Shown here in pieces: positions 49,022 to 60,415 of a stretch of DNA of 64,000 bases. A model generated the notes under the pieces. It was not told where the DNA came from. It saw only the letters and a list, made by a program, of their open reading frames with translations, and made no database searches. The stretch lies in the NCBI GenBank assembly GCA_030696775.1, contig JAUYRN010000031.1, forward strand, positions 62,001-126,000, read 5' to 3'. This DNA is from Sulfuricurvum sp. (GTDB lineage Bacteria > Campylobacterota > Campylobacteria > Campylobacterales > Sulfurimonadaceae). The position numbers and the translations under genes were made by a program. Position 1 is the first letter of the stretch. The number at the start of each line of letters is the position of its first letter.

Positions 49022-49939
49022 CTACTCCGTGGCAGCTTTTAGCACTTCTTCAAAGTCTTTTTGAGCTTGAAGCAATACCTGTTTACCCTCAGGATCACTT
49101 ACTTTTGCACTGCTCATCCAGTTATACACACCAGGGAAGCCCATAACAATTTCATTGGTATCTTTTTTCTTGTATACCATAAGTGTACAAGGGGCAAAAG
49201 CTGCTGCTTCAGGACGTGTTTTAGCAACCGTATAAATCACTTTTAATTTACAGATTGAATACGTGTCATAAAAGTCAAAAGGGCTCACTTGACCCTTATC
49301 CGTTAACATAAACTGATAATCAGTAAAGTTTGACATGACAAATCCAGCAGGTTTCAACCCGTCTTCAATCATCATCTCAACCTCTTCTTTGTCTTTTTTC
49401 CAGCTTTCGCTACTCGATGAACGGACAAATCGACTTAGTAATGCTCCCTCTTTTGGAAGAGATATTTCGCTCAATGTGTGTTTAGCTTTAGGAAGCGCTT
49501 TTTTGAATGTAGCCAATACCTCTTTTTCAATCAAGGCAAATTGAGGTGCTTTAAAACCTGCAATCTTCTCCTGTGATTTTGAGGTCAAGACAGATATATG
49601 AAGCTCATTTTCACCCTTGCGCTGATAGATACCCACACCCATCGGGACAAATATCCCTGCATCCGGATGGGATTTAACCAATGACGCCGCGTGTTTAATG
49701 TGAAATACTGTCAGCAAGTTAAATGCCGTAAAATCACTTTTCTCAAATTGCTTCATAAACGGACCGTTCATTTCAGAATTTGCCGAGATATAAAATCCAT
49801 TTGCTTCAAGTGCTTTTTCGATCACTGTTGCATTTACTTTACCATCCGCATTGGGAACACTGAACATATGCAAATCACCTGCTGCGCTTACTGTGACCAT
49901 GCCTAAAATCATCCATACGAAGAACACTATTTTTTTCAT
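49022..49939 (-). CDS. Exported tandem-DUF302 protein
   Basis: A signal peptide (MKKIVFFVWMILGMVTVSAAG) is followed by two related halves. Each resembles DUF302: residues about 25-160 with HIKHAASLVKSHPDAGIFVP then GVGIYQRKGENELHISV, and about 190-300 with YTVAKTRPEAAAFAPC then LMVYKKKDTNEIVMGF. DUF302 proteins are often found beside sulfur-oxidation genes, but the function is unknown. Here it is the last gene of the set downstream of soxB, 18 bases after the DsrE-like gene. A single cysteine (in FAPCTLMV) or SICKL might matter. Confidence 0.82.
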   Translation of the reverse strand: MKKIVFFVWMILGMVTVSAAGDLHMFSVPNADGKVNATVIEKALEANGFYISANSEMNGPFMKQFEKSDFTAFNLLTVFHIKHAASLVKSHPDAGIFVPMGVGIYQRKGENELHISVLTSKSQEKIAGFKAPQFALIEKEVLATFKKALPKAKHTLSEISLPKEGALLSRFVRSSSSESWKKDKEEVEMMIEDGLKPAGFVMSNFTDYQFMLTDKGQVSPFDFYDTYSICKLKVIYTVAKTRPEAAAFAPCTLMVYKKKDTNEIVMGFPGVYNWMSSAKVSDPEGKQVLLQAQKDFEEVLKAATE

Positions 49940-49957
49940 CTTGACTCCTTTGTTTTT

Positions 49958-50392
49958 TTAAGGTTTTATATAAATCCAGCCGGATTTAACACGTTCTAGC
50001 ATCTCAACAATCCCTGCTGTGACAATTTCACTGCCCTCGATGAGTTCTGTAGGCTTGATCTTTTTTGTTTCCATCGTATTACCGCACGCGATAAATTTTA
50101 CATCGTACTGCATCAATGCGTTTACCCGAACGGCAATTTCTTTTTCACTTTTTAACAAGGCCCGGATTCCATGATAATAGGCAACAATTTCCATTTCTAC
50201 CTTCTCTGGGCCGTAAAACTTGAGGACATTATTAGCAGAACTCAACACGTGATTGATCGATTCATCATCGGCACTCGTGATACAAAAAACGATCTGACGA
50301 GGATGATCTATCGACGGTTTTGGTTCAGCGAATTGCGTCTCTGCAAAGCTGCTAATAACAAAAAGCATTAGAATTACTGCATGTCGTATCAT
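49958..50392 (-). CDS. Exported DsrE-family protein
   Basis: After a signal peptide (MIRHAVILMLFVISSFAET) comes a DsrE-like fold of about 120 residues: QIVFCITSADDESINHVLSS, a central helix-strand set (VEMEIVAYYHGIRALL) and VKFIACGNTMETKKI with one conserved cysteine in the place where DsrE/TusD-type proteins carry the persulfide. The family handles protein-bound sulfur; this one is predicted to be periplasmic. It overlaps the thioredoxin-like gene by 4 bases. Confidence 0.84.
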   Translation of the reverse strand: MIRHAVILMLFVISSFAETQFAEPKPSIDHPRQIVFCITSADDESINHVLSSANNVLKFYGPEKVEMEIVAYYHGIRALLKSEKEIAVRVNALMQYDVKFIACGNTMETKKIKPTELIEGSEIVTAGIVEMLERVKSGWIYIKP

Positions 50393-50775
50393 TTAATTTC
50401 CTCCAACATGCTTTTAAAATCTTCTTGATTCCATGAACCCGGAACCGTTTTGATTATTTTTTTATCTTCTGAAATAAAATAAAATGTCGGTGTCATTGAA
50501 GCTTCAATATCCAAGGGCATCTTTTGATGGGCGATATTAATCTTTACCCCAATAAAACGTTTTTGGATAAAATCGCTCATCCGTTTATCATCAAACACAT
50601 CCCGCTGCATATTTTCACAATAATGGCATCCGTCTCGAACTACTTCGAGCATTATAATCTTATGATTTTTTTTCGATAATGCTCTCGCATCATTCCAACT
50701 CTTCCACTCCATACCACTGCTAAAAAGAAGTTGGGATGTTATCAGTAAACTCATGACTATTTTGTTCATTCCCAC
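50389..50775 (-). CDS. Periplasmic thioredoxin-fold protein (SoxW-like)
   Basis: This 128-residue protein has a signal peptide (IVMSLLITSQLLFSSG), the redox motif CHYC in VVRDGCHYCENMQRD at about residues 49-63, and the cis-proline loop SMTPTFYFI. It resembles SoxW and other thioredoxin-like proteins that reduce Sox components such as SoxY or recycle disulfides. It is sandwiched between overlapping MBL and DsrE genes in the sox-linked set. Partner not shown by sequence. Confidence 0.86.
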   Translation of the reverse strand: MGMNKIVMSLLITSQLLFSSGMEWKSWNDARALSKKNHKIIMLEVVRDGCHYCENMQRDVFDDKRMSDFIQKRFIGVKINIAHQKMPLDIEASMTPTFYFISEDKKIIKTVPGSWNQEDFKSMLEEIK

Positions 50776-51668
50776 TCCAACATACGGTAAGATGCTTCAA
50801 CATTGCCTCGATGGAGGGTTTCGTACATTTTAAGCGATTTGTATTGAGGCATTGTCACTTTTGCAACCGTGTCATCGATACTGATCCCATCAGCAATCGC
50901 CGCACGAACTTGGGATCGCATATCTGTAAGATAATTATAAGTCATCTCTGCTGCTTTTTTATCGGTACGATACCCATGCCCGCCGATAATCGTCGTTGCT
51001 TTCAATTTTTTCAGCTCATCGAGCGCATCAATCCACCCGTTAATATCACCACCCACGAGAGAGGGAACACGGTCATTAAAAACTAAATCTGCCGCAAAAA
51101 GGGTTTTAGATTTGGGTAGAAATATCACCATATCTTTAACACTGTGGGCTTTTTTCTTCATGAGATGCAGTTGAAGTTCTTGATCTCCGATTTTTAGGAT
51201 CTTATCCGTGTTTATCATTTCAGTAGGTCGGGTCGGAACCGTCATGGCATACGCTTCTGGAGAGATATGGGTTTGGATTCGGGAAGGAGAATCAATGCTA
51301 GCATTATGAATAAAATCATCCGAACCCAAAACCTTAACTCCCATTTGAGCGAAAAAGCCGTTACCCAGCCAATGATCATCATGGACATGGGTGTTTATAA
51401 CAAGCTCTACTGGTAAAGCTTTTATTTTTTGCATCGCCTGATATGCCGAATGGGCATACGCATACGAAGAACCGCTGTCGATAACGACATAGCTCTTTTT
51501 GGTATCGATATAACACGTGTTGACCATGTTGCCGTTATTCGTCGTATTCATCACAGCAGGTTCACCGAAAAAGCACGTCACTTCAGGAGTGACGCGCTTG
51601 GGTGTGAGTGCAAAATCGTATGCACTCAATGTTGTGACCGTGAGTAGTAATGGCAACATCCAACGCAT
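50766..51668 (-). CDS. Periplasmic metallo-beta-lactamase-fold hydrolase (SoxH-like)
   Basis: A signal peptide (RWMLPLLLTVTTLSAYDF) leads to an MBL fold with the zinc motif INTHVHDDHWLGNGFF, then LVFNDRVPSL and GGHGYRTDKKAAEM. The family next to sox genes includes SoxH of Paracoccus, whose role is not essential and whose substrate is unknown; some relatives belong to quinoprotein relay systems or act on persulfides. It lies 10 bases downstream of the porin and overlaps the thioredoxin-like gene by 10 bases. Confidence 0.87.
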   Translation of the reverse strand: MRWMLPLLLTVTTLSAYDFALTPKRVTPEVTCFFGEPAVMNTTNNGNMVNTCYIDTKKSYVVIDSGSSYAYAHSAYQAMQKIKALPVELVINTHVHDDHWLGNGFFAQMGVKVLGSDDFIHNASIDSPSRIQTHISPEAYAMTVPTRPTEMINTDKILKIGDQELQLHLMKKKAHSVKDMVIFLPKSKTLFAADLVFNDRVPSLVGGDINGWIDALDELKKLKATTIIGGHGYRTDKKAAEMTYNYLTDMRSQVRAAIADGISIDDTVAKVTMPQYKSLKMYETLHRGNVEASYRMLEWE

Positions 51669-51678
51669 GTTTTATCCT

Positions 51679-53214
51679 TTAGAAGAGGTAGTTGATTTCG
51701 AAACGGTATTCGTTATACGATGCATAATCAGTTATTACAGGTACAGCTGTTGTAGTTACAGGGTCAGCCGTGATTGTTGCAAAACGTAATTTAAACTCGG
51801 TATTTGGAAGTGCTTTAAACGTTTGCCATGCATCGACATGAAAAATTGTACGATCTGAAAACGTACTTGATCCAGCTAACATTTTAGCATCATCAAAATT
51901 CATATTTTCATAATCAGCTGCTACAAGTAATCCTGGGACTAAACCTGCTTTTCCAAAATCATACACTGCTTTTACAGCCCAGTTTTTAGTATTAGCAATC
52001 CAATCTACCTGTGCCATTGAACGAGTATATCCTCCAGTAGGGAATCCACGCCATGGAGCAATGATATCTGCATCATCAGAAATCTTTGAATAGCCTGCTG
52101 AAAGTTCCAATGGACCACTTGCAGCGACTAAACGTGCCATAATAATACTACCATCTACACTTGTAGGGTTAGTGTATCCTTTAGCTGAAGCAGCAGTAAC
52201 ATTCCCATTTAATGCTGCACCACCAATTTTTCCAGCGCCATCATCCATTTGACGAAGATAGCGAACACCAGGAGTCAGAGTCCATGCATCATTTAGTTTG
52301 ATTTGATAATTAGCTTCGGCAATAGCAGTATTAAAAAAACCATTTAATCCGATATATTCACCATCCAATTTAAGATTTGGAATTGATTTATTGGTAGCTG
52401 TCACCAATACCATTTCAGGATCAACATCTCCTCCACCTTTGGTACGAATGTTATATGCTGATAAACCTTTATGAGTGCCTGAATCATCATTGTATGCAGT
52501 TTTATCAGTACTAAGGGTAGCACTATCAGCCCCACTAGCAATTAAACTATGAAAACTTTGGTGATCACGAAGCTTTTGAGACATGATATATCCAACACGT
52601 ACCGATGTGTCTTTGATATCTTTGTTTTCAACAACAGCTGCTTCAAAGGTATTTGGAATCATTTTCGTATCATTGGATGCCAACATGATACTGTCGATCA
52701 TTTGACGACCTACTTTTACATCCGTTTTACCATTTTTATATTCGCCATACGCTTCAGCAAAAACACCCATCCCACCTTCAGTACCATCACGGCGGGTGTG
52801 ATACATATCTTTTCCTGCCTTACCGAAGTTCGTCGTATTACCAGGAACCGTATTGTCGTCTAAAACTTGCATTGCTCCATAAAAACCTACAGTTGCAGCA
52901 AAACCATGATAGAACCCTGATTTTGCTACTAAGCTGCCACCCAAGCCCCACATATCATTATCGCGAGTTTTAGCAAGAGCATCTGTAGCGCCCTGCTCGT
53001 TATCCCAATCCCACAAAAAAGCATTCGAACGTAGGCGTCCGTACACTTCACCCTCACTAAGCATCTCAGCGAATGAATTTACATCACCCGGTGCTTTAGT
53101 ATACTCAACTTGATAATTACCTTTGATATTACGATCGTCACTTTTAAGCGCATGCGCCGATGTTGCAAACAAACATGCAGCTGCTGCTGCGATACTAAGA
53201 TTAACTAATTTCAT
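51679..53214 (-). CDS. Outer-membrane porin (Opr-type)
   Basis: The protein has 511 residues with a signal peptide ending SAHA. The mature part has alternating hydrophobic beta strands rich in Tyr, Gly and Asn, and ends in a phenylalanine (YRFEINYLF), as expected for an outer-membrane barrel. VEYTKAPGDVNSFAEML and VKVGRQMIDSIMLASNDTKMI are typical of Campylobacterota porins of the OprD-like group. It follows soxB after repeat A2 and has AAGGAGT before its ATG. Its substrate is unknown; carriage of thiosulfate or another anion is an inference from context. Confidence 0.88.
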   Translation of the reverse strand: MKLVNLSIAAAAACLFATSAHALKSDDRNIKGNYQVEYTKAPGDVNSFAEMLSEGEVYGRLRSNAFLWDWDNEQGATDALAKTRDNDMWGLGGSLVAKSGFYHGFAATVGFYGAMQVLDDNTVPGNTTNFGKAGKDMYHTRRDGTEGGMGVFAEAYGEYKNGKTDVKVGRQMIDSIMLASNDTKMIPNTFEAAVVENKDIKDTSVRVGYIMSQKLRDHQSFHSLIASGADSATLSTDKTAYNDDSGTHKGLSAYNIRTKGGGDVDPEMVLVTATNKSIPNLKLDGEYIGLNGFFNTAIAEANYQIKLNDAWTLTPGVRYLRQMDDGAGKIGGAALNGNVTAASAKGYTNPTSVDGSIIMARLVAASGPLELSAGYSKISDDADIIAPWRGFPTGGYTRSMAQVDWIANTKNWAVKAVYDFGKAGLVPGLLVAADYENMNFDDAKMLAGSSTFSDRTIFHVDAWQTFKALPNTEFKLRFATITADPVTTTAVPVITDYASYNEYRFEINYLF

Positions 53215-53240: not shown

Positions 53241-53307
53241 CCAAAGGAATAAAATCCCTTTGGCTACGCTAGCCGCTATGGCACTAAAGCTTGCCCCATA
53301 CGGGGCA
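53241..53307 (+). repeat. Dispersed hairpin repeat, family A, copy 2
   Basis: CCAAAGG/CCTTTGG forms a 7-bp stem at 53241-53263. The 32-base core at 53264-53295 is identical to 13922-13953. TGCCCC/GGGGCA forms a stem at 53292-53307, in the position where copy 1 has TGCCTT/AAGGCA. It lies between soxB and the porin gene and could modulate read-through or mRNA decay. Confidence 0.75.
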
Positions 53308-53318
53308 GAATTTAGTTG

Positions 53319-55079
53319 TTAGCAGCTTTTTGAGCCCTTGCGTGGGCAACCACAATCGTAATCCAAGATATTAACATTGCTGTTACCACTGATATCCACA
53401 TTTTTTTGTTTACGTATGTAGTTGGCAGCGATATCATAAACCGGACGAGTCAATTGATCATTCAAGTTGGTTCCTGCATTTTGCAAGTTCCCGCCCCATG
53501 ATGACACTTTGTACACTTTACGATCATCCAATGGTTTTCCCTTGACCATGATATTTGTGATACGTTTCCCGCTTGGAGCACCGATCTTGATATCATACGT
53601 CACACCACCAAGACGGCTCATATCGCCACCTTGCTGATAGAGAGGATTTGCATTAAAGACATTATCAGCAATATCTTCAAGAACATTTCGAATCTGCAAT
53701 CCGCCCATTTCAAACGTATAAACATTCGGATAGGTGATCGCTGTCATACCATAGACATCGTCCATAGTAATGGCTTCTCCGCCAAGAACCGTGGTTCCCC
53801 AACGATAACCTGGCGTAAACGAAATATCCGAATCCATAGCATCCATAATCGAGTCATTGATCAACTCATCAAACGGTGAATGGAAAGTATCGCGTTTGTA
53901 CAAGATGTTTTTGGTCACACCGAGTATTTCACTAAATTCTTTTTCATGCGGAGCATAAAGAGAATTGACAAGCTCTACCCCTTCTGGATCAGCAGGGATA
54001 AGATTGGCAGCCACGGGAATGAGTTTGTACTCATATCCTTTGACTTTATGGTTTTTGATGTCAATATCCAAGCGTCCAACGTATTTGCCATGGCTTCCTG
54101 CGATAATGATGACCGTACCATTGATAACAGTCGGCTGCGGTGACGGATCATGCGTGTGACCGCTGAGGATGAAATCGATCCCCTTGACCTGACGCGCAAC
54201 TTCTTGGTCAACACTGAAACCGTCGTGGGATAAAAGAACCACACAATCGACTTTTTCTTCTTTACGCAATTTATCCACGTACGTTTGAAGCGTATCAAGA
54301 CGTAATCCAAAACTCCACCCTTGGGTAAACTCTTTTGGATTTGCAGTGGAGGTAAACGGAAACGATTGACCGATAATACCGATCTTCGCACCGCCTCGTT
54401 CCATAATCGTATACGGTTCAAAAATCAATTCCTCATAGTCTTCAGCAAATGAATCATCGCCGACAATATTTTGAGAAATAAATTTTCCTTTGAGCATTTC
54501 GATCAGCTCTTTAACGCGCTGTTTACCATACGTAAATTCCCAGTGACCGACCATAACGTCAACGCCCAAATAGTTTTGTGCCTGAACAATCGCTTCACCT
54601 TTGGTTTTTAGTGCAACGCCGGTACCTTGCCATGTATCTCCTGAATCCAGAAGTAATACATTGTCAGCACCGCGCTCTTTTTTGACGTGGTTGATGAGGG
54701 TTTTCATGTGAGCGATCCCCCCCATTTTTCCGAACTTGTGCGCCAATGCATCAAAGTTCATAAACGTGTCGAAATACGCATCAAGAGTCTTGCCCTTCAT
54801 CCCGTAGTGTTTCAAAAACGACTCACCGCACAAAAACCCTGGAGTTCCTGTGAGATTTGGAGCCGAAATCAATGTCGAAGGCTCACGCCAGTAAAGAGGC
54901 TTGATGTGAGCGTGCATGTCACAGATATGCAATAATGTGACATTACCCCGAGCATTAAATCCGTAAATGTCTTGTAAGCCTACTTGGTCAAGGCGTTTAG
55001 GTGCAGCAGAAGCAAGAGTCGGTAATCCGATCCCTAATGCAGCTGCAATGTGAAAAAAGTCTCTTCGTGATACATCCAT
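53319..55079 (-). CDS. soxB: Thiosulfohydrolase SoxB
   Basis: SoxB hydrolyses the terminal sulfonate from SoxY-bound thiosulfate, releasing sulfate in the periplasm. A Tat signal (VSRRDFFHIAAALGIGL) is followed by the two-metal 5'-nucleotidase-like domain: ICDMHAHIKPLYW, LLLDSGDTWQGTG, LLSHDGFSVD and LSGHTHDPSPQP supply metal ligands, and FTPGYRWGTTVLGGEAIT belongs to the C-terminal substrate domain. The 586-residue length is normal. The C-terminus is unusual, ending DCGCPRKGSKSC with three cysteines. It starts 10 bases after soxA. Confidence 0.97.
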   Translation of the reverse strand: MDVSRRDFFHIAAALGIGLPTLASAAPKRLDQVGLQDIYGFNARGNVTLLHICDMHAHIKPLYWREPSTLISAPNLTGTPGFLCGESFLKHYGMKGKTLDAYFDTFMNFDALAHKFGKMGGIAHMKTLINHVKKERGADNVLLLDSGDTWQGTGVALKTKGEAIVQAQNYLGVDVMVGHWEFTYGKQRVKELIEMLKGKFISQNIVGDDSFAEDYEELIFEPYTIMERGGAKIGIIGQSFPFTSTANPKEFTQGWSFGLRLDTLQTYVDKLRKEEKVDCVVLLSHDGFSVDQEVARQVKGIDFILSGHTHDPSPQPTVINGTVIIIAGSHGKYVGRLDIDIKNHKVKGYEYKLIPVAANLIPADPEGVELVNSLYAPHEKEFSEILGVTKNILYKRDTFHSPFDELINDSIMDAMDSDISFTPGYRWGTTVLGGEAITMDDVYGMTAITYPNVYTFEMGGLQIRNVLEDIADNVFNANPLYQQGGDMSRLGGVTYDIKIGAPSGKRITNIMVKGKPLDDRKVYKVSSWGGNLQNAGTNLNDQLTRPVYDIAANYIRKQKNVDISGNSNVNILDYDCGCPRKGSKSC

Positions 55080-55089
55080 TTGATTATCC

Positions 55090-55896
55090 TTAGCGCTTTA
55101 ATCCAGGAATCTGAATCGCGTTTCCTTTGGTTTTGTTGGTTACATAGACTTCAAGTGCAACCATCTCTTTAGAGCCCAATGGAATCTCAGCCAATAGAGC
55201 ATTTTTCATACATTGCTGCATACGCTTGTCCAGTGTCACCATTGCACTTTGTGTCATACGATATGCCGGCCATGTTCCTGCAGCTGCCGTTTCTTTTGCT
55301 CCCAAATCAGGAAGAGGCTGCATACGAAGACGCTGACCGACTACATCTGCACTGTGACAGCTGTTGCATGAAAGTCCACGTCCGCCGCGACGCTCTTCGA
55401 ATACGGTTTGACCCAATGCGTGCATCTCTTGCATTTGCTTGTTTGCTTTGACGTCAATGTTCGTCTTAAGATCATTTGCGAGTGATTTCACATACGCTGT
55501 CATATTAATCATCTCTTTGTCTTTAAGCTTAAAAACCTTTTTATCACGATCCGCCAATGCCATTTGTAAGGATTGAGATAACGTCACGACTTTACGCATC
55601 GTCTTTGGAAACGTAAAATCATATTTAGGTGTGGCTGTCAGCATACGAGGAAACCCGGCAATAGTTTCTGGCAGATCTTTTACACTAACCCCAAGTACCT
55701 TTGCATAAGCTTCTTGACCGATTAGAGAATTAAATACCTCTTCACCTTCTGCCAAATCCATAGCAGCCGGGTTATTTTCAACCATTTCAGCGTACATTGC
55801 CTTATCAGCATCACTCATACTTAGTTTTTCATCCGCACTTAACATGCCACAAAGAGCCACGGAAAGTAATGCAGCACAAATAGAAAGATTACGCAT
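55090..55896 (-). CDS. soxA: Cytochrome c subunit SoxA
   Basis: SoxA with SoxX forms the cytochrome complex that oxidatively joins thiosulfate to SoxY. A signal peptide (LSICAALLSVALCGMLSA) precedes about 245 residues with a single heme motif, SCNSCHSADVVG, at about residues 175-186. The later cysteine in DKRMQQCMKNALL fits the persulfide-ligated catalytic cysteine of SoxA. With only one CxxCH it is the monoheme form. It follows soxZ by 3 bases. Confidence 0.95.
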   Translation of the reverse strand: MRNLSICAALLSVALCGMLSADEKLSMSDADKAMYAEMVENNPAAMDLAEGEEVFNSLIGQEAYAKVLGVSVKDLPETIAGFPRMLTATPKYDFTFPKTMRKVVTLSQSLQMALADRDKKVFKLKDKEMINMTAYVKSLANDLKTNIDVKANKQMQEMHALGQTVFEERRGGRGLSCNSCHSADVVGQRLRMQPLPDLGAKETAAAGTWPAYRMTQSAMVTLDKRMQQCMKNALLAEIPLGSKEMVALEVYVTNKTKGNAIQIPGLKR

Positions 55897-55899
55897 GAC

Positions 55900-56235
55900 T
55901 TATCCTTTTGGAGTAATGGCTACAGTACTCTCTACGCTTTGACCTTTATTGTCTTTTGCTAGAACTTTTAACGTTCCTGCAGACGGTACTTTGAAACTGA
56001 TGGTTAAAACAGGATTCACTGAAAGGGATTCCCACGTTACCATCTTGGTCACTAATTTATCATTGAATGAAAAACTAACTTCATTGATGTAATGTGCCGG
56101 AATAATTGCTCCGCTATCTTTGTCTTTACGCATTCCCGATTCCATAGGATGCATCGCCATAAAATCGATTTTGACGACATCGCCTGCTTTGTAATCTTTT
56201 GGTTTGATCTTGATCAATGTTTTCATCTCTGCCAT
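55900..56235 (-). CDS. soxZ: Sulfur-carrier partner SoxZ
   Basis: SoxZ pairs with SoxY to form the periplasmic sulfur carrier. It has 111 residues and no signal peptide; in the known system it is exported together with SoxY through the Tat route. IDFMAMHPMESGMRKDKD, HYINEVSFSFNDKLVTKM and VLTISFKVPSAGTLKVLAKD match the family's immunoglobulin-like fold. It lies 53 bases after soxY. Confidence 0.95.
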   Translation of the reverse strand: MAEMKTLIKIKPKDYKAGDVVKIDFMAMHPMESGMRKDKDSGAIIPAHYINEVSFSFNDKLVTKMVTWESLSVNPVLTISFKVPSAGTLKVLAKDNKGQSVESTVAITPKG

Positions 56236-56288: not shown

Positions 56289-56762
56289 TCAACCACATCC
56301 ACCAATAGTTACTTTAACGTTTTGCTTGCCGCTTAGGAATGTGCCATCGCTCATCTCAGCAATCGCCAAAACATCTTGCGTTCCGCCAAGTTTGATACGT
56401 GTTCCAAAAGAAGCTTCTCCATTAGCAGGAGTCAAATAGACGTTTGCGCATCGAACATTATTGTTCTTTGTTGCGAAGACATGGATCGCTTTAACATACT
56501 CTTTGTCTGTCATAGCACTTGTTACGGTTACTTTGATCGGAACAACTGCACCGTTTTCTGCGATTTCAGGAGCGGATAAAGATACTTTTGATGATGGAGT
56601 TACCGCTTTTCCGCCAGTAATAGCCGAGATTGCTGTTTCAATGCTCATCTCATTAGGACCTGTAACTTTTTTAGCTTCATCCGCTGCACTTACAATACTA
56701 GGAATCAGTGTTGCACATGCTGCTACTGCTCCAAAACTTTTTAAAAATGATCTACGTTCCAT
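56289..56762 (-). CDS. soxY: Sulfur-carrier protein SoxY
   Basis: SoxY carries intermediates covalently on the cysteine of a C-terminal GGCG swinging arm, which is present here as VTIGGCG at the end. The Tat signal is MERRSFLKSFGAVAACATL. The mature domain includes VPIKVTVTSAMTDKEYVKAI and CANVYLTPANGEASFGTRIK. The 157 residues are normal. AAGGAG precedes the ATG, and soxX lies 15 bases upstream. Confidence 0.97.
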   Translation of the reverse strand: MERRSFLKSFGAVAACATLIPSIVSAADEAKKVTGPNEMSIETAISAITGGKAVTPSSKVSLSAPEIAENGAVVPIKVTVTSAMTDKEYVKAIHVFATKNNNVRCANVYLTPANGEASFGTRIKLGGTQDVLAIAEMSDGTFLSGKQNVKVTIGGCG

Positions 56763-56777: not shown

Positions 56778-57296
56778 TTATTTTTTAGACATGACATAAG
56801 ATGCCAAATCACATACTTCACGCTCATTAAAGAGTCCATTTGCCAAATTGACCGTCATATGTGTTTCTGCATTATCCATACGAGGATCAGCAATTTTTTG
56901 ATATACAAATTGACCATTTCGTGCTCCACTCTCTACGAATAGAGATTTATAGTTACTCAAATCCGGTCCGATATTGCCGTAGCCTTTTGCCCCTTCGATA
57001 TTGTGGCACGCTACACAATTACCCATTTGTTTCTCTTTTCCATCTGGAAGTAATCGTGTTAAACCCGCAGGCGGATTCTCTTTTGCATCTTTACCATTTA
57101 GGTTATGGAAAATGTAATTCCCGCGTGCAATCGCCGCAAGGTCATCCGTAATACATCCCTCTGGCATTGCGTACAACTTAGGTGCAGGAAGTGCATCTTT
57201 TAGTAAGATTGTAGTCGCATCAGGTATTTCAATCACCTGCGACAAATCAGCAGCACCTAAAAAGGTCGCGATTCCAAGCATAATCACTTTTCGCAT
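56778..57296 (-). CDS. soxX: Cytochrome c subunit SoxX
   Basis: SoxX is the electron-accepting cytochrome of the SoxAX complex. After a short signal peptide, the heme motif is GNCVACHNIEGAKGYGNIGPD, and the axial methionine is probably in AETHMTVNLANGLFN. At 172 residues it is in the usual range. GGAG precedes the ATG. It is the first gene of soxXYZAB; upstream on the minus strand TACAAT around 57325-57340 is a possible -10 element. Confidence 0.94.
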   Translation of the reverse strand: MRKVIMLGIATFLGAADLSQVIEIPDATTILLKDALPAPKLYAMPEGCITDDLAAIARGNYIFHNLNGKDAKENPPAGLTRLLPDGKEKQMGNCVACHNIEGAKGYGNIGPDLSNYKSLFVESGARNGQFVYQKIADPRMDNAETHMTVNLANGLFNEREVCDLASYVMSKK

Positions 57297-57398
57297 TGGC
57301 TCTCCTAATTTTTATTTATTTCGAAGAGTATTGTAAAGCAGGAGTGTAAAATTAACGTAAAAAAAATGAGAAAATTATGCAAAAATTAATTCTGTCTC

Positions 57399-57442
57399 GT
57401 AAAGGCAATGTTAATGCCTTAGCAGCTAGCGGAGCGAAAGGG
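57399..57442 (-). repeat. Dispersed hairpin repeat, family A, copy 3 (diverged)
   Basis: Read on the minus strand it begins CCCTTTCGCTCCGCTAGC, close to CCCTTTGGCTACGCTAGC of copy 2, and continues GCTAAGGCATTAA where copy 2 has GCTATGGCACTAA. AAGGCA (57402-57407) and TGCCTT (57415-57420) form a 6-bp stem. It lies between the histidine kinase and soxX. Confidence 0.6.
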
Positions 57443-57463
57443 ATTTGGCGTGCCCCTAGAGTA

Positions 57464-58636
57464 TTATTCCTTGTGCGTTAAATAGATTGGAGGGCTAAAA
57501 GTGTAACTAAAGGTACTACCTTCGCCGTATTGAGAATCGATGTATAAATCAATCCCTGCTTTATCAATAATTGATTTGACGATATTCAGCCCGATACCAA
57601 AGCCCCCCTTGTCTTGATTCTCACGATAATACCGTTCGAAAATCTGGCCAACCTCTTTAATACCGACACCAAAATCTTTAAATGACATAACGCAACTGTT
57701 TTCATCCACTTCGAGTGTAACCTCTATCATCCCGCCTTCATGAGAGTATTTAATCGCATTGGAAAGATTATTATCAATAATACGCTGGAGTTGTGTTGGA
57801 TTAAACATAAGTCTAATCCCTTGCGTAATGCGAGCTTCGATGGTGATATTTTTGAGCGCAGCTACTTCCTGAAAATAATCGATCCTATCTTGTAAATAGC
57901 GACTAAAATCGATAGCTTCATACATAAAAGAGAGCCTCTCATTTTTAATCAAATAATCCATATCATTGTAAAGTGTTGCCAGCGTTTTAGTGGCAGCTTT
58001 AATTCGTTGCAGATATTTATTCGTAGGATTGGCACGATTATAGAGGTCTATGTTCACATTGATAATCGAAAGAGGGGTATTGATCTCGTGCATCGAATCT
58101 TTGATAAATTGATCCAGCCGTTTATTTAACCGCTGAAACGGCAAAGCAAACCGATCCAGAAAAAAGAGCGATAACACAAAAATCAATAGTGCAATCGCCA
58201 GCAAAATAATAACCACATCCTGATAGATACGAACATACGAAAGTTCTCCGCCAACCACCAGATACGACGCATCAAAATAACGTTTTTCCGGTAATGACAC
58301 AACCAAATAGGCATAACCATCGGTGATGTGATATCCAGTTGTCTGAATTTCTAACGGCTTTTGTATTAACGTAAAAATCGGGATAAAATGCCCATTGTAC
58401 AATCCCGACTCAAACGATCGAAAACGAGGATAATTGAACGCTTCTTTCTCTTTTTGTTGAAATTCTTCCATAGCACGGACTATGAGATGCGATTTTGCTT
58501 TAAGAGAGAACTCATATTGGATTTCATGAATGTATTTCATATAGGTGACATACAAATACGTCGGCGTCAGTAATAGCACCGCAACAAGCATCGTGTACAA
58601 AAATGCATTTTTAAGAGCATACCGTTTATCGTTCAA
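57464..58636 (-). CDS. Sensor histidine kinase
   Basis: Two membrane helices (FLYTMLVAVLLLTPTYLYV near the start and VVIILLAIALLIFVLSLFFL near residue 175) enclose a periplasmic sensor of about 130 residues. The H-box is IKDSMHEINTPLSIINV, and the ATPase domain has NNLSNAIKYSHEGG, SFKDFGVGIK and KGGFGIGLNIVKSI. I take the TTG at 58636, which overlaps the response-regulator stop by 11 bases; the longer frame is inside that gene. The 390-residue protein is the last gene before repeat A3 and soxX. Confidence 0.9.
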   Translation of the reverse strand: MNDKRYALKNAFLYTMLVAVLLLTPTYLYVTYMKYIHEIQYEFSLKAKSHLIVRAMEEFQQKEKEAFNYPRFRSFESGLYNGHFIPIFTLIQKPLEIQTTGYHITDGYAYLVVSLPEKRYFDASYLVVGGELSYVRIYQDVVIILLAIALLIFVLSLFFLDRFALPFQRLNKRLDQFIKDSMHEINTPLSIINVNIDLYNRANPTNKYLQRIKAATKTLATLYNDMDYLIKNERLSFMYEAIDFSRYLQDRIDYFQEVAALKNITIEARITQGIRLMFNPTQLQRIIDNNLSNAIKYSHEGGMIEVTLEVDENSCVMSFKDFGVGIKEVGQIFERYYRENQDKGGFGIGLNIVKSIIDKAGIDLYIDSQYGEGSTFSYTFSPPIYLTHKE

Positions 58637-59279
58637 TGATATACCCCAATCCGCGTCGATTTTGGATGATCTCGATAGGAAGTTTTTTACGCAGATTATT
58701 GATCTGTACTCGGATATTTGCCGGATCGACGTATTCTCCCCATATTTCATCTTGGAACATCTCAACCGAAACGATTTGATTGTTGTGCTTGAGCAAGACG
58801 GCAAATATCTCTTTTTCGGTTTTACTCAATGCAATATCATGTCCGTTATGAGAGAGGCTAAAATTTTCTGTATTATAGGTGAGTCCATCCCCAAAATCGA
58901 GCAGACTCTCTCCGTCATGATAATAGCTTTTTAGCGCATGCATAATGCGTAATTGAAGCTCTGTGAGGTCAAAAGGTTTACGTATATAGTCACAGCATCC
59001 CGATTTGTACCCCTCTTGCAAATCATCCACATTGACCATTGAGGTGAGAAAAATAGCAGGAGTTTTATTCCCTTCTTTGCGCAGTGTCCGCAATAAATCA
59101 AAACCATTCATCCCCGGAACATTCACATCGAGCAAATAAAGATCATATCGGGATTCATACGTCGCGTCAAAAGCCTTCTCCCCATTGGAAAAACCGTTCA
59201 CTTCAAATCCCATATCTTCTAAAAATTCAGTAATGCTAATGCGCAGCATGTATTCGTCTTCGAGCAAAAGTACCTTCAT
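58626..59279 (-). CDS. OmpR-family response regulator
   Basis: The receiver domain begins MKVLLLEDEYMLRISI, with the phospho-aspartate in DLYLLDVNVPGMNGF, a switch residue in FLTSMVNV and the lysine in YIRKPFDL. The C-terminal winged helix has LSKTEKEIFAVLLKH and VRVQINNLRKKLPIEII, the DNA-recognition helix region. At 217 residues it is typical. Start and stop overlap the sensor-protein gene (4 bases) and the kinase gene (11 bases). Target genes are unknown; sox is the nearest downstream operon. Confidence 0.93.
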   Translation of the reverse strand: MKVLLLEDEYMLRISITEFLEDMGFEVNGFSNGEKAFDATYESRYDLYLLDVNVPGMNGFDLLRTLRKEGNKTPAIFLTSMVNVDDLQEGYKSGCCDYIRKPFDLTELQLRIMHALKSYYHDGESLLDFGDGLTYNTENFSLSHNGHDIALSKTEKEIFAVLLKHNNQIVSVEMFQDEIWGEYVDPANIRVQINNLRKKLPIEIIQNRRGLGYIIER

Positions 59280-60415
59280 CGAATCTCCCCTTTTACTTCT
59301 TTTGAAACTTTATAATCCAATAATATCCCAATCAGTTCTTCTTTGGAATACGCATTTAACCGTTCCCGTGCCTCTTCTAAAAAAAGTTCCCGATCTTCAG
59401 CTGCTACAACATCTTTAAGATACAAAAGATCCTTGTCGTATGTACTTTGGAACAATGCGTTATTCATCGATTTTTTCATCATAACATCATAAAGCTCATC
59501 ACGGCTAAGATGGATTAAAAACGAAATATCTTCTCTGTCCGAATGGGAATACGCACTCACTTGTTTTTCGGTCAAAGAAAATACAAACGCACCAATCGTT
59601 TCTCCCTCACCATTTTTCATTGGTACATAAAAAAGGTATTTTCCCTGTCGAAAAAGAACACGGGCTTGCTTAAAGGCTTTAAAATCAATCCCTCCGAGTA
59701 ATTTCAAATCACTTTGCGTGTACTTTGGATTCGCCAAAATGTATTCTTTACCGATTGCAGGACTCTCCTGCATAAACACAGCAGTCTCATAAAATCGTTC
59801 ATCCATTAAAACATACAGATTAATTCCCAATCGGTCAAAATATTCTTGAGTTGATTCAAAAAACGATACCACTTCGACAAACCCGATCATTTTTTCTTGA
59901 TGATACACCGGTACCGTTGCCTTGATTCCAAGCTTGCGCCCTACTTCGATCGCTGCTCGGGGTTTTTTATGATTTTGAAAATAAAGTAAATCGGGACGAT
60001 GAAAATCCAAAGGCATTCCCGCATACGAGTTATCCCAACTGCGTGCAAAAATAAAATAATCGGAGGTAATAATCTGTGAGCGAATCAACGTCTTTGTGTA
60101 CAATTGAATCGATTCCATCACCTCTGAGAGAATTTTAAATCCTTTGTCCTCATCTTCTTGCTCCAGAGCATCGCTTAAATTCGAATTTTGACTCAAGATT
60201 AAAGCATAGCGAAGTGCCGTTGAACGTTCTTTGTCAAGCTGATTGTTTAATCCCATTGAGAGTTGATCACTGAGCCTTTGCAGCGTTTGTGATGTTACCT
60301 CTTTTTCTAAATGAATAAAAACCGCGCCCAAAACACCTATAATGACTAAAAAAACAGCCGCAATAATTTTTTTATTTCCAAACAGCTGCATCACTTTTTC
60401 AATCATCCTATTCAT
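59276..60415 (-). CDS. Membrane-anchored double-Cache-type sensor protein without output domain
   Basis: One N-terminal helix (IIAAVFLVIIGVLGAVFIHL) is followed by about 270 periplasmic residues resembling a dCache ligand-binding domain: helical stalk, then ITSDYFIFARSWDNSYAGMP, RPDLLYFQNHKKPRAAIEVG and ATVPVYHQEKMIGFVEVV, then a second lobe. No kinase, GGDEF or methyl-accepting part follows; the last 90 residues are charged helices. ATGA overlap with flhB and overlap with the regulator gene indicate coupled expression. It could feed a signal to the kinase next door; this is inferred. Confidence 0.8.
   Translation of the reverse strand: MNRMIEKVMQLFGNKKIIAAVFLVIIGVLGAVFIHLEKEVTSQTLQRLSDQLSMGLNNQLDKERSTALRYALILSQNSNLSDALEQEDEDKGFKILSEVMESIQLYTKTLIRSQIITSDYFIFARSWDNSYAGMPLDFHRPDLLYFQNHKKPRAAIEVGRKLGIKATVPVYHQEKMIGFVEVVSFFESTQEYFDRLGINLYVLMDERFYETAVFMQESPAIGKEYILANPKYTQSDLKLLGGIDFKAFKQARVLFRQGKYLFYVPMKNGEGETIGAFVFSLTEKQVSAYSHSDREDISFLIHLSRDELYDVMMKKSMNNALFQSTYDKDLLYLKDVVAAEDRELFLEEARERLNAYSKEELIGILLDYKVSKEVKGEIR

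Follow-up and report, generated by a model that had tools for sequence, protein, structure and literature searches.

How do bacteria with an incomplete Sox pathway handle the sulfur left on the carrier SoxYZ? The question is raised by a locus of Sulfuricurvum sp. within the window, by which we mean the whole stretch of 64,000 nucleotides analysed here (assembly GCA_030696775.1, contig JAUYRN010000031.1, positions 62,001 to 126,000). Behind soxXYZAB, on the minus strand, stand five further genes, and the coordinates and Pfam matches bear out the products first assigned to them: a porin, a metallo-beta-lactamase (MBL)-fold hydrolase, a thioredoxin (Trx) with a CHYC motif, a DsrE-family protein and a tandem-DUF302 protein. 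The initial annotation saw in these genes a periplasmic module for persulfide, one that possibly compensates for missing SoxCD. The accessory set is real, conserved and attached to sox, and it has been partly described before (soxH1-soxW-dsrE). With moderate confidence, we take the whole to be a thiosulfate locus of the Campylobacterota in which the exported set serves the SoxYZ carrier and a sox-linked response regulator (RR) drives a regulon marked by direct repeats.

The first part of the answer comes from conservation. Among 259 sampled Campylobacterota genomes, 42 encode SoxB above the family cut-off; the neighbourhoods of SoxB and MBL matches were inspected, and their genes were annotated using profiles made from the proteins of the window. 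The window's type of cluster, here called type I, combines soxXYZAB with a sensor trio and the accessory genes and is found in 24 genomes, in two of which it is cut by contig ends. The order sox-porin-MBL-Trx-DsrE-DUF302 recurs in several families, and the claim of a single conserved gene set is upheld by the 24 of 259 genomes that share the arrangement. All 22 resolved type I loci have DsrE and DUF302; 19 have MBL, and profiles detect Trx in 17 (18 counting one phmmer match). An OprD-type protein occupies the porin position in 17 of these loci; in four, an unrelated barrel of about 404-408 residues takes its place, a replacement that fits uptake of a common solute, yet shows nothing. A second, type II cluster, found in 19 genomes, has soxCD-XYZA-B and, behind it, genes for Trx, a MOSC protein and DsrE, among others; DsrE adjoins soxB in 15 of the 19.

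The 80 DsrE matches that ranked best among named genomes were also examined. In all 55 cases with at least 5.2 kb of upstream sequence, the length that the test needs, soxB lies no more than 6 kb upstream of the DsrE orthologue and in the same orientation. DUF302 lies behind DsrE in 65/71, and MBL and Trx lie ahead of it in 49/66 and 41/66, respectively. Since these matches were picked by similarity, the counts show the synteny of orthologues and do not extend to DsrE proteins at large. With the arrangement recurring in 24 of 259 genomes and DsrE behind soxB in 55 of 55, the association is beyond chance.

DsrE also stays with soxY, soxZ and soxB in a second, rearranged Sulfuricurvum locus. This compact locus (L098, 2741-9383; L097 is similar) reads DsrE-soxY-soxZ-soxB-DsrE-SoxB/UshA-like-DUF302-DsrE beside a divergent pair of RR and histidine kinase (HK) genes, and neither soxX nor soxA was found in the examined stretch. 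Elsewhere (L052, 1-9471), an MBL-Trx-Trx-DsrE-DUF302 unit stands in three tandem copies with a period of 3883 bp and 99.95% identity, the MBL gene being truncated in two of them, which represents either recent amplification or an assembly artefact. The type I locus of Sulfurovum mangrovi (NZ_CP087125.1) sits on a sequence that is labelled as a plasmid and also holds ribosomal-protein genes; soxB and the porin gene are split there into several frames, possibly by sequencing errors.

The conserved unit is larger than first seen, as it also takes in three genes ahead of soxX (57464-60415), the sensor-RR-HK trio. The sensor precedes RR-HK-soxX in the same way in all but one of the resolved type I loci (21/22); the RR is scored as missing in the window's own row of that comparison because its open reading frame (ORF) overlaps the long HK ORF. 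The 5' to 3' order on the minus strand is thus dCache_3 sensor, OmpR-type RR, HK, soxX, soxY, soxZ, soxA, soxB, OprD porin, MBL, CHYC Trx, DsrE and tandem-DUF302 (Table 1).

Table 1. Features of the sox locus, in order of transcription, with window positions and the profile scores on which each assignment rests.
Feature	Positions	Strand	Evidence and remarks
dCache_3 periplasmic sensor protein without kinase domain (sens)	59276..60415	-	PF14827 46.8 bits (cut-off 25.7)
OmpR-type RR	58626..59279	-	PF00072 + PF00486; position conserved
Sensor HK	57464..58804	-	PF00512 + PF02518; position conserved; longest ORF, real start probably internal
Direct repeat TTTACG-N5-TTTACA, candidate RR site	57345..57361	-	11-bp period; 49 bp 5' of soxX ATG; followed by -10-like TTTACAAT
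soxX	56778..57296	-	TIGR04485 78.3 bits (cut-off 61)
soxY	56289..56762	-	TIGR04488 162.2 bits (cut-off 125)
soxZ	55900..56235	-	TIGR04490 110.4 bits (cut-off 76)
soxA	55090..55896	-	TIGR04484 189.4 bits (cut-off 110)
soxB	53319..55079	-	TIGR04486 814.2 bits (cut-off 550)
OprD-family porin	51679..53214	-	PF03573 59.1 bits (cut-off 25)
SoxH-type periplasmic MBL-fold hydrolase	50766..51668	-	Lactamase_B PF00753 65.6 bits (cut-off 22.7)
SoxW-type periplasmic Trx, CHYC, cis-Pro T95-P96	50389..50775	-	Thioredoxin_2 38.3 bits (cut-off 27); PF13098 / PF03190 / PF13899
Periplasmic DsrE-family protein (DsrE1)	49958..50392	-	PF02635 32.6 bits (cut-off 22.7)
Tandem-DUF302 protein, ~305 aa	49022..49939	-	PF03625 37.4 bits (cut-off 23), two stretches

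The last four genes are as tightly packed as had been claimed. MBL and Trx overlap by 10 bases with a GTG start of Trx or by 4 (ATGA) with the ATG at 50769, which is the more likely start; Trx and DsrE overlap by 4 bases, and a gap of 18 separates DsrE from DUF302. The porin gene ends 10 bases ahead of MBL, and a gap of 104 bases lies between soxB and the porin gene. Judged by eye, all five downstream proteins have signal-peptide-like N-termini. The soxB-porin gap holds one copy (53241-53308) of a dispersed repeat of about 68 bp with 30 matches in the genome, and a similar sequence is found upstream of soxX, at about 57390-57450, by eye in the opposite orientation. The genome is that of a Sulfuricurvum and is 100% complete, with the window on its contig 16 in the numbering used here; an uncultured Sulfuricurvum has a DsrE with 98% identity to the one in the window.

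What could these proteins do? The suggestion that their folds could handle thiols or persulfides agrees with the invariance of the putative catalytic residues among relatives. In the MBL proteins of type I loci, HxHDDH, H175, D194 and H231, which make up a complete metal site, are invariant, together with a cysteine pair, C32/C52. By similarity the protein is SoxH-like and not SoxG-like, as it matches Paracoccus SoxH at 27% over 284 aligned positions (E 4e-30) and SoxG at E 0.005; its best NCBIfam matches are the SoxH-related models TIGR04559/04558, under cut-off (201.7 of 280 bits). The C32/C52 pair is absent from Paracoccus SoxH and from MBL relatives associated with pyrroloquinoline quinone (PQQ). 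In four PQQ loci of other bacteria, MBL relatives adjoin SoxYZ-like carriers, which ties the family to the carrier. A SoxYZ-fusion carrier (TIGR04557) is also found near PQQ-type dehydrogenase and ABC-transporter genes on another contig of the window genome (L003, contig 21, 1-12000). In some Campylobacterota families (L070-L074), the MBL homologues lack HxHxDH and therefore may not be metal hydrolases. Whether the MBL protein could be a persulfide dioxygenase was weighed as well; its nearest relatives among solved sequences are hydrolases and beta-lactamases, matched at weak E-values, which is not decisive.

The alternative that survives best, though an unlikely one, makes SoxH a second sulfate-releasing hydrolase that acts on SoxY-bound sulfonate as an analogue of SoxB, leaving only redox balance to the other genes. 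Such a role has been proposed (PMC9122950, PMC10045233), the metal site is intact, and SoxH genes adjoin soxCDYZ clusters too. However, no published assay of SoxH hydrolase activity on a SoxY conjugate was found in the literature searched. Moreover, SoxB is already encoded in the same operon, MBL is missing from some loci, and SoxH relatives accompany SoxYZ-like carriers in PQQ alcohol-dehydrogenase loci that have no Sox sulfur pathway beside them.

In the thioredoxin, C50 and C53 of the CHYC motif and the cis-proline P96 are invariant in type I loci. The protein resembles SoxW (E 2e-7; profile match at 1.5e-14) more than SoxS (E 3e-4), and it has the CxxC fold related to SoxW, with an export signal judged by eye. 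No dedicated SoxV/CcdA partner is encoded in the locus; DsbD and a protein of CcdA size are encoded elsewhere in the genome, and DsbD adjoins the accessory module in several relatives. In DsrE, C103 of the ACxNTM motif is invariant in 20 aligned relatives. The second domain of the DUF302 protein keeps the invariant C230 and C251, which the first domain has lost. Its model (predicted local distance difference test 90) matches the single DUF302 structures 1q9u and 1j3m over one domain, neither of which has a known function.

From the literature, periplasmic thioredoxins such as SoxS and SoxW keep SoxYZ active (PMC10451225), and SoxYZ serves poorly as an intermediate when it is unconjugated or carries a sulfonate (PMC5336275). 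Together with the synteny, the SoxH kinship and the SoxYZ-like carriers near SoxH relatives, this suggests that the most likely role of the set is maintenance of the SoxYZ carrier and transfer of its sulfane. The SoxW-type Trx, with electrons from DsbD, would resolve dead-end SoxYZ disulfides and strip excess sulfane. DsrE would take sulfane on its single cysteine and hand it on as persulfide, the SoxH-type hydrolase would remove unproductive adducts from the SoxY cysteine, and DUF302 may be a further cysteine-pair protein of the same relay, while the porin would admit the anion. In the present host, which lacks SoxCD, the sulfane probably exits either as extracellular sulfur or in the form of sulfide or polysulfide that Sqr can use.

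The truncation of the Sox pathway is confirmed in the window genome, where soxXYZAB is present and TIGR04555 found no SoxC, the nearest molybdoenzyme being SorA, with SorB beside it. Neither a YedE/SoxT-type transporter nor dsrA, for rDsr, was found in this genome; sHdr was not searched for. Sulfuricurvum kujiense and RIFRC-1 have likewise been named as lacking soxCD (PMC4288042). These absences speak for the idea that the set replaces SoxCD in handling SoxY-bound sulfane, which we nevertheless consider improbable. When this was tested through the distribution of SoxC, SoxC proved to be encoded elsewhere in 12 of the 22 resolved locus-bearing genomes (13/24 counting the two cut loci), which does not support compensation. 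In addition, DsrE/Trx homologues occur in the soxCD-bearing type II clusters and near a soxCD cluster on a plasmid of the alphaproteobacterium Indioceanicola, so the set is independent of the absence of SoxCD. The search for DsrE outside the phylum covered plasmids, as the single genome-contig scan returned Campylobacterota alone. Of the initial interpretation, then, the conserved, sox-attached set stands and the compensation for SoxCD does not.

How might such a set be controlled? A pair of direct repeats, TTTA(C/T)(A/G)-N5-TTTA(C/T)(A/G) with an 11-bp period, precedes soxX in 55 of 60 distinct relatives, where 0.09 would be expected from shuffles; the upstream sequences are related, and the count therefore measures conservation and not independent events. 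In four of the five relatives without the repeat, the stretch taken as upstream of soxX falls inside the kinase gene, which makes a wrongly placed soxX start likely there; the count of 55 stands on uncorrected starts. The repeats occur in none of 55 soxB-porin gaps, and scans for promoter and terminator consensus sequences gave no more matches than shuffles.

In the window genome, one match to TTTACRNNNNNTTTACA precedes soxX, a second precedes a periplasmic DsrE gene heading a DsrE-rhodanese-cytoplasmic DsrE-like-DsbD-Trx operon unlinked to sox, and a third precedes another periplasmic DsrE gene. The operon, with its sox-type repeat in the promoter, is adjoined by a divergent ArsR-type gene (L191, contig 14:405500-412500). 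Among relatives of the first of these DsrE paralogues, the element is found in 13 of 30 loci (0.08 expected), three of the 30 matching the second paralogue and not the first. It is present in 13 of 20 unlinked loci versus none of 10 embedded behind DsrE-DUF302 (Fisher two-sided p = 0.001, which is indicative only, as the sequences share ancestry). An element common to soxX and to unlinked sulfur genes suggests that one two-component regulator may switch them all. We predict from these patterns that the sox-linked RR binds TTTACA-N5-TTTACA repeats, and that it probably also drives the unlinked DsrE and DsrE-rhodanese-DsrE-DsbD-Trx genes. No description of the trio or its repeats was found in the literature searched, which left most subscription papers uncovered. 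A further step is possible but tentative: the two-component system would sense thiosulfate or a sulfane product and, via the TTTACA repeats, control a regulon dispersed over the genome (sox, periplasmic DsrE paralogues, rhodanese, DsbD and Trx) for periplasmic removal of sulfane from SoxYZ without SoxCD, SoxT/YedE or rDsr.

A number of observations weigh against serving the carrier under this regulator. The division of labour among Trx, DsrE, SoxH and DUF302 is inferred. Paracoccus SoxH lacks HxHxDH, so that the complete metal site of the window MBL is not common to its namesake, whose annotation therefore transfers little about catalysis. Several close Sulfuricurvum relatives have no Trx in the locus, and some loci have no MBL, so neither is strictly required there. 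The repeat pattern was picked after the soxX alignment had been seen (the test on DsrE2 paralogues came later), and the expectations for the soxX repeats and DsrE paralogues come from composition-only shuffles. The exact search of the window genome gave four matches versus two for the reversed control, the fourth having no gene start nearby. With two mismatches allowed, 108 matches compare with 158 in the control, and there is therefore no signal of a wide regulon at that level.

A still less probable explanation is that the downstream genes are general periplasmic helpers, for disulfides or cytochrome maturation, that ride on the sox operon. Trx does resemble DsbH/DsbD-type domains, and the soxX and soxA cytochromes require maturation. 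Against this, the genes track soxB specifically (DsrE 55/55) across several families and two cluster types, share a promoter element with other DsrE genes, and are induced on thiosulfate versus S0. That induction comes from Sulfurovum indicum, where dsrE, soxW and soxH1 beside soxB are 2.17-3.83-fold up, soxH1 and soxB being confirmed by quantitative reverse-transcription PCR (PMC10045233); this comes close to the expected co-induction with sox, with S0 as the reference. That the sox-linked DUF302 acts on polythionates such as trithionate, not on SoxYZ, is the least probable reading of all, for although Acidithiobacillia and Thiohalorhabdus do have a DUF302 gene between soxA and soxB, the role was put forward there as speculation (PMC5037610), that protein has 191 residues against about 305 in the tandem form here, and no function is known for the structures that the fold matches.

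Thiosulfate oxidisers of the genera Sulfuricurvum, Sulfurimonas and Sulfurovum are abundant, and the locus offers a short list of conserved candidates, of which DsrE and DUF302 recur more constantly than SoxH and SoxW, the two with the better names. The predicted regulon link between soxX and the unlinked DsrE genes is the new and testable part, with a concrete regulator-site prediction. The nearest known system is soxABXY1Z1-soxH1-soxW-dsrE of Sulfurovum indicum ST-419, which has the same families beside soxB and is induced by thiosulfate (PMC10045233). Unlike the window genome, ST-419 has soxCD elsewhere in its genome, and DUF302, the two-component trio, the shared promoter element and the flanking tags RS08595/RS08575 go unmentioned in that paper. 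The Paracoccus cluster soxSVW-XYZABCDEFGH also holds a SoxH-type MBL and a SoxW-type Trx, but differs in having SoxCD, SoxS, CcdA (SoxV) and YeeE/YedE, with no DsrE or DUF302 in its annotated gene list. In Sulfurimonas, soxCDYZH likewise places a SoxH-type MBL beside SoxYZ, but as a separate cluster with SoxCD and without soxB (PMC9122950). Finally, soxXYZA-DUF302-B of the Acidithiobacillia shares with the window a DUF302 gene in a soxCD-less sox cluster; its shorter protein is encoded within the sox genes, and a DsrE/MBL/Trx set is undescribed in that report (PMC5037610).

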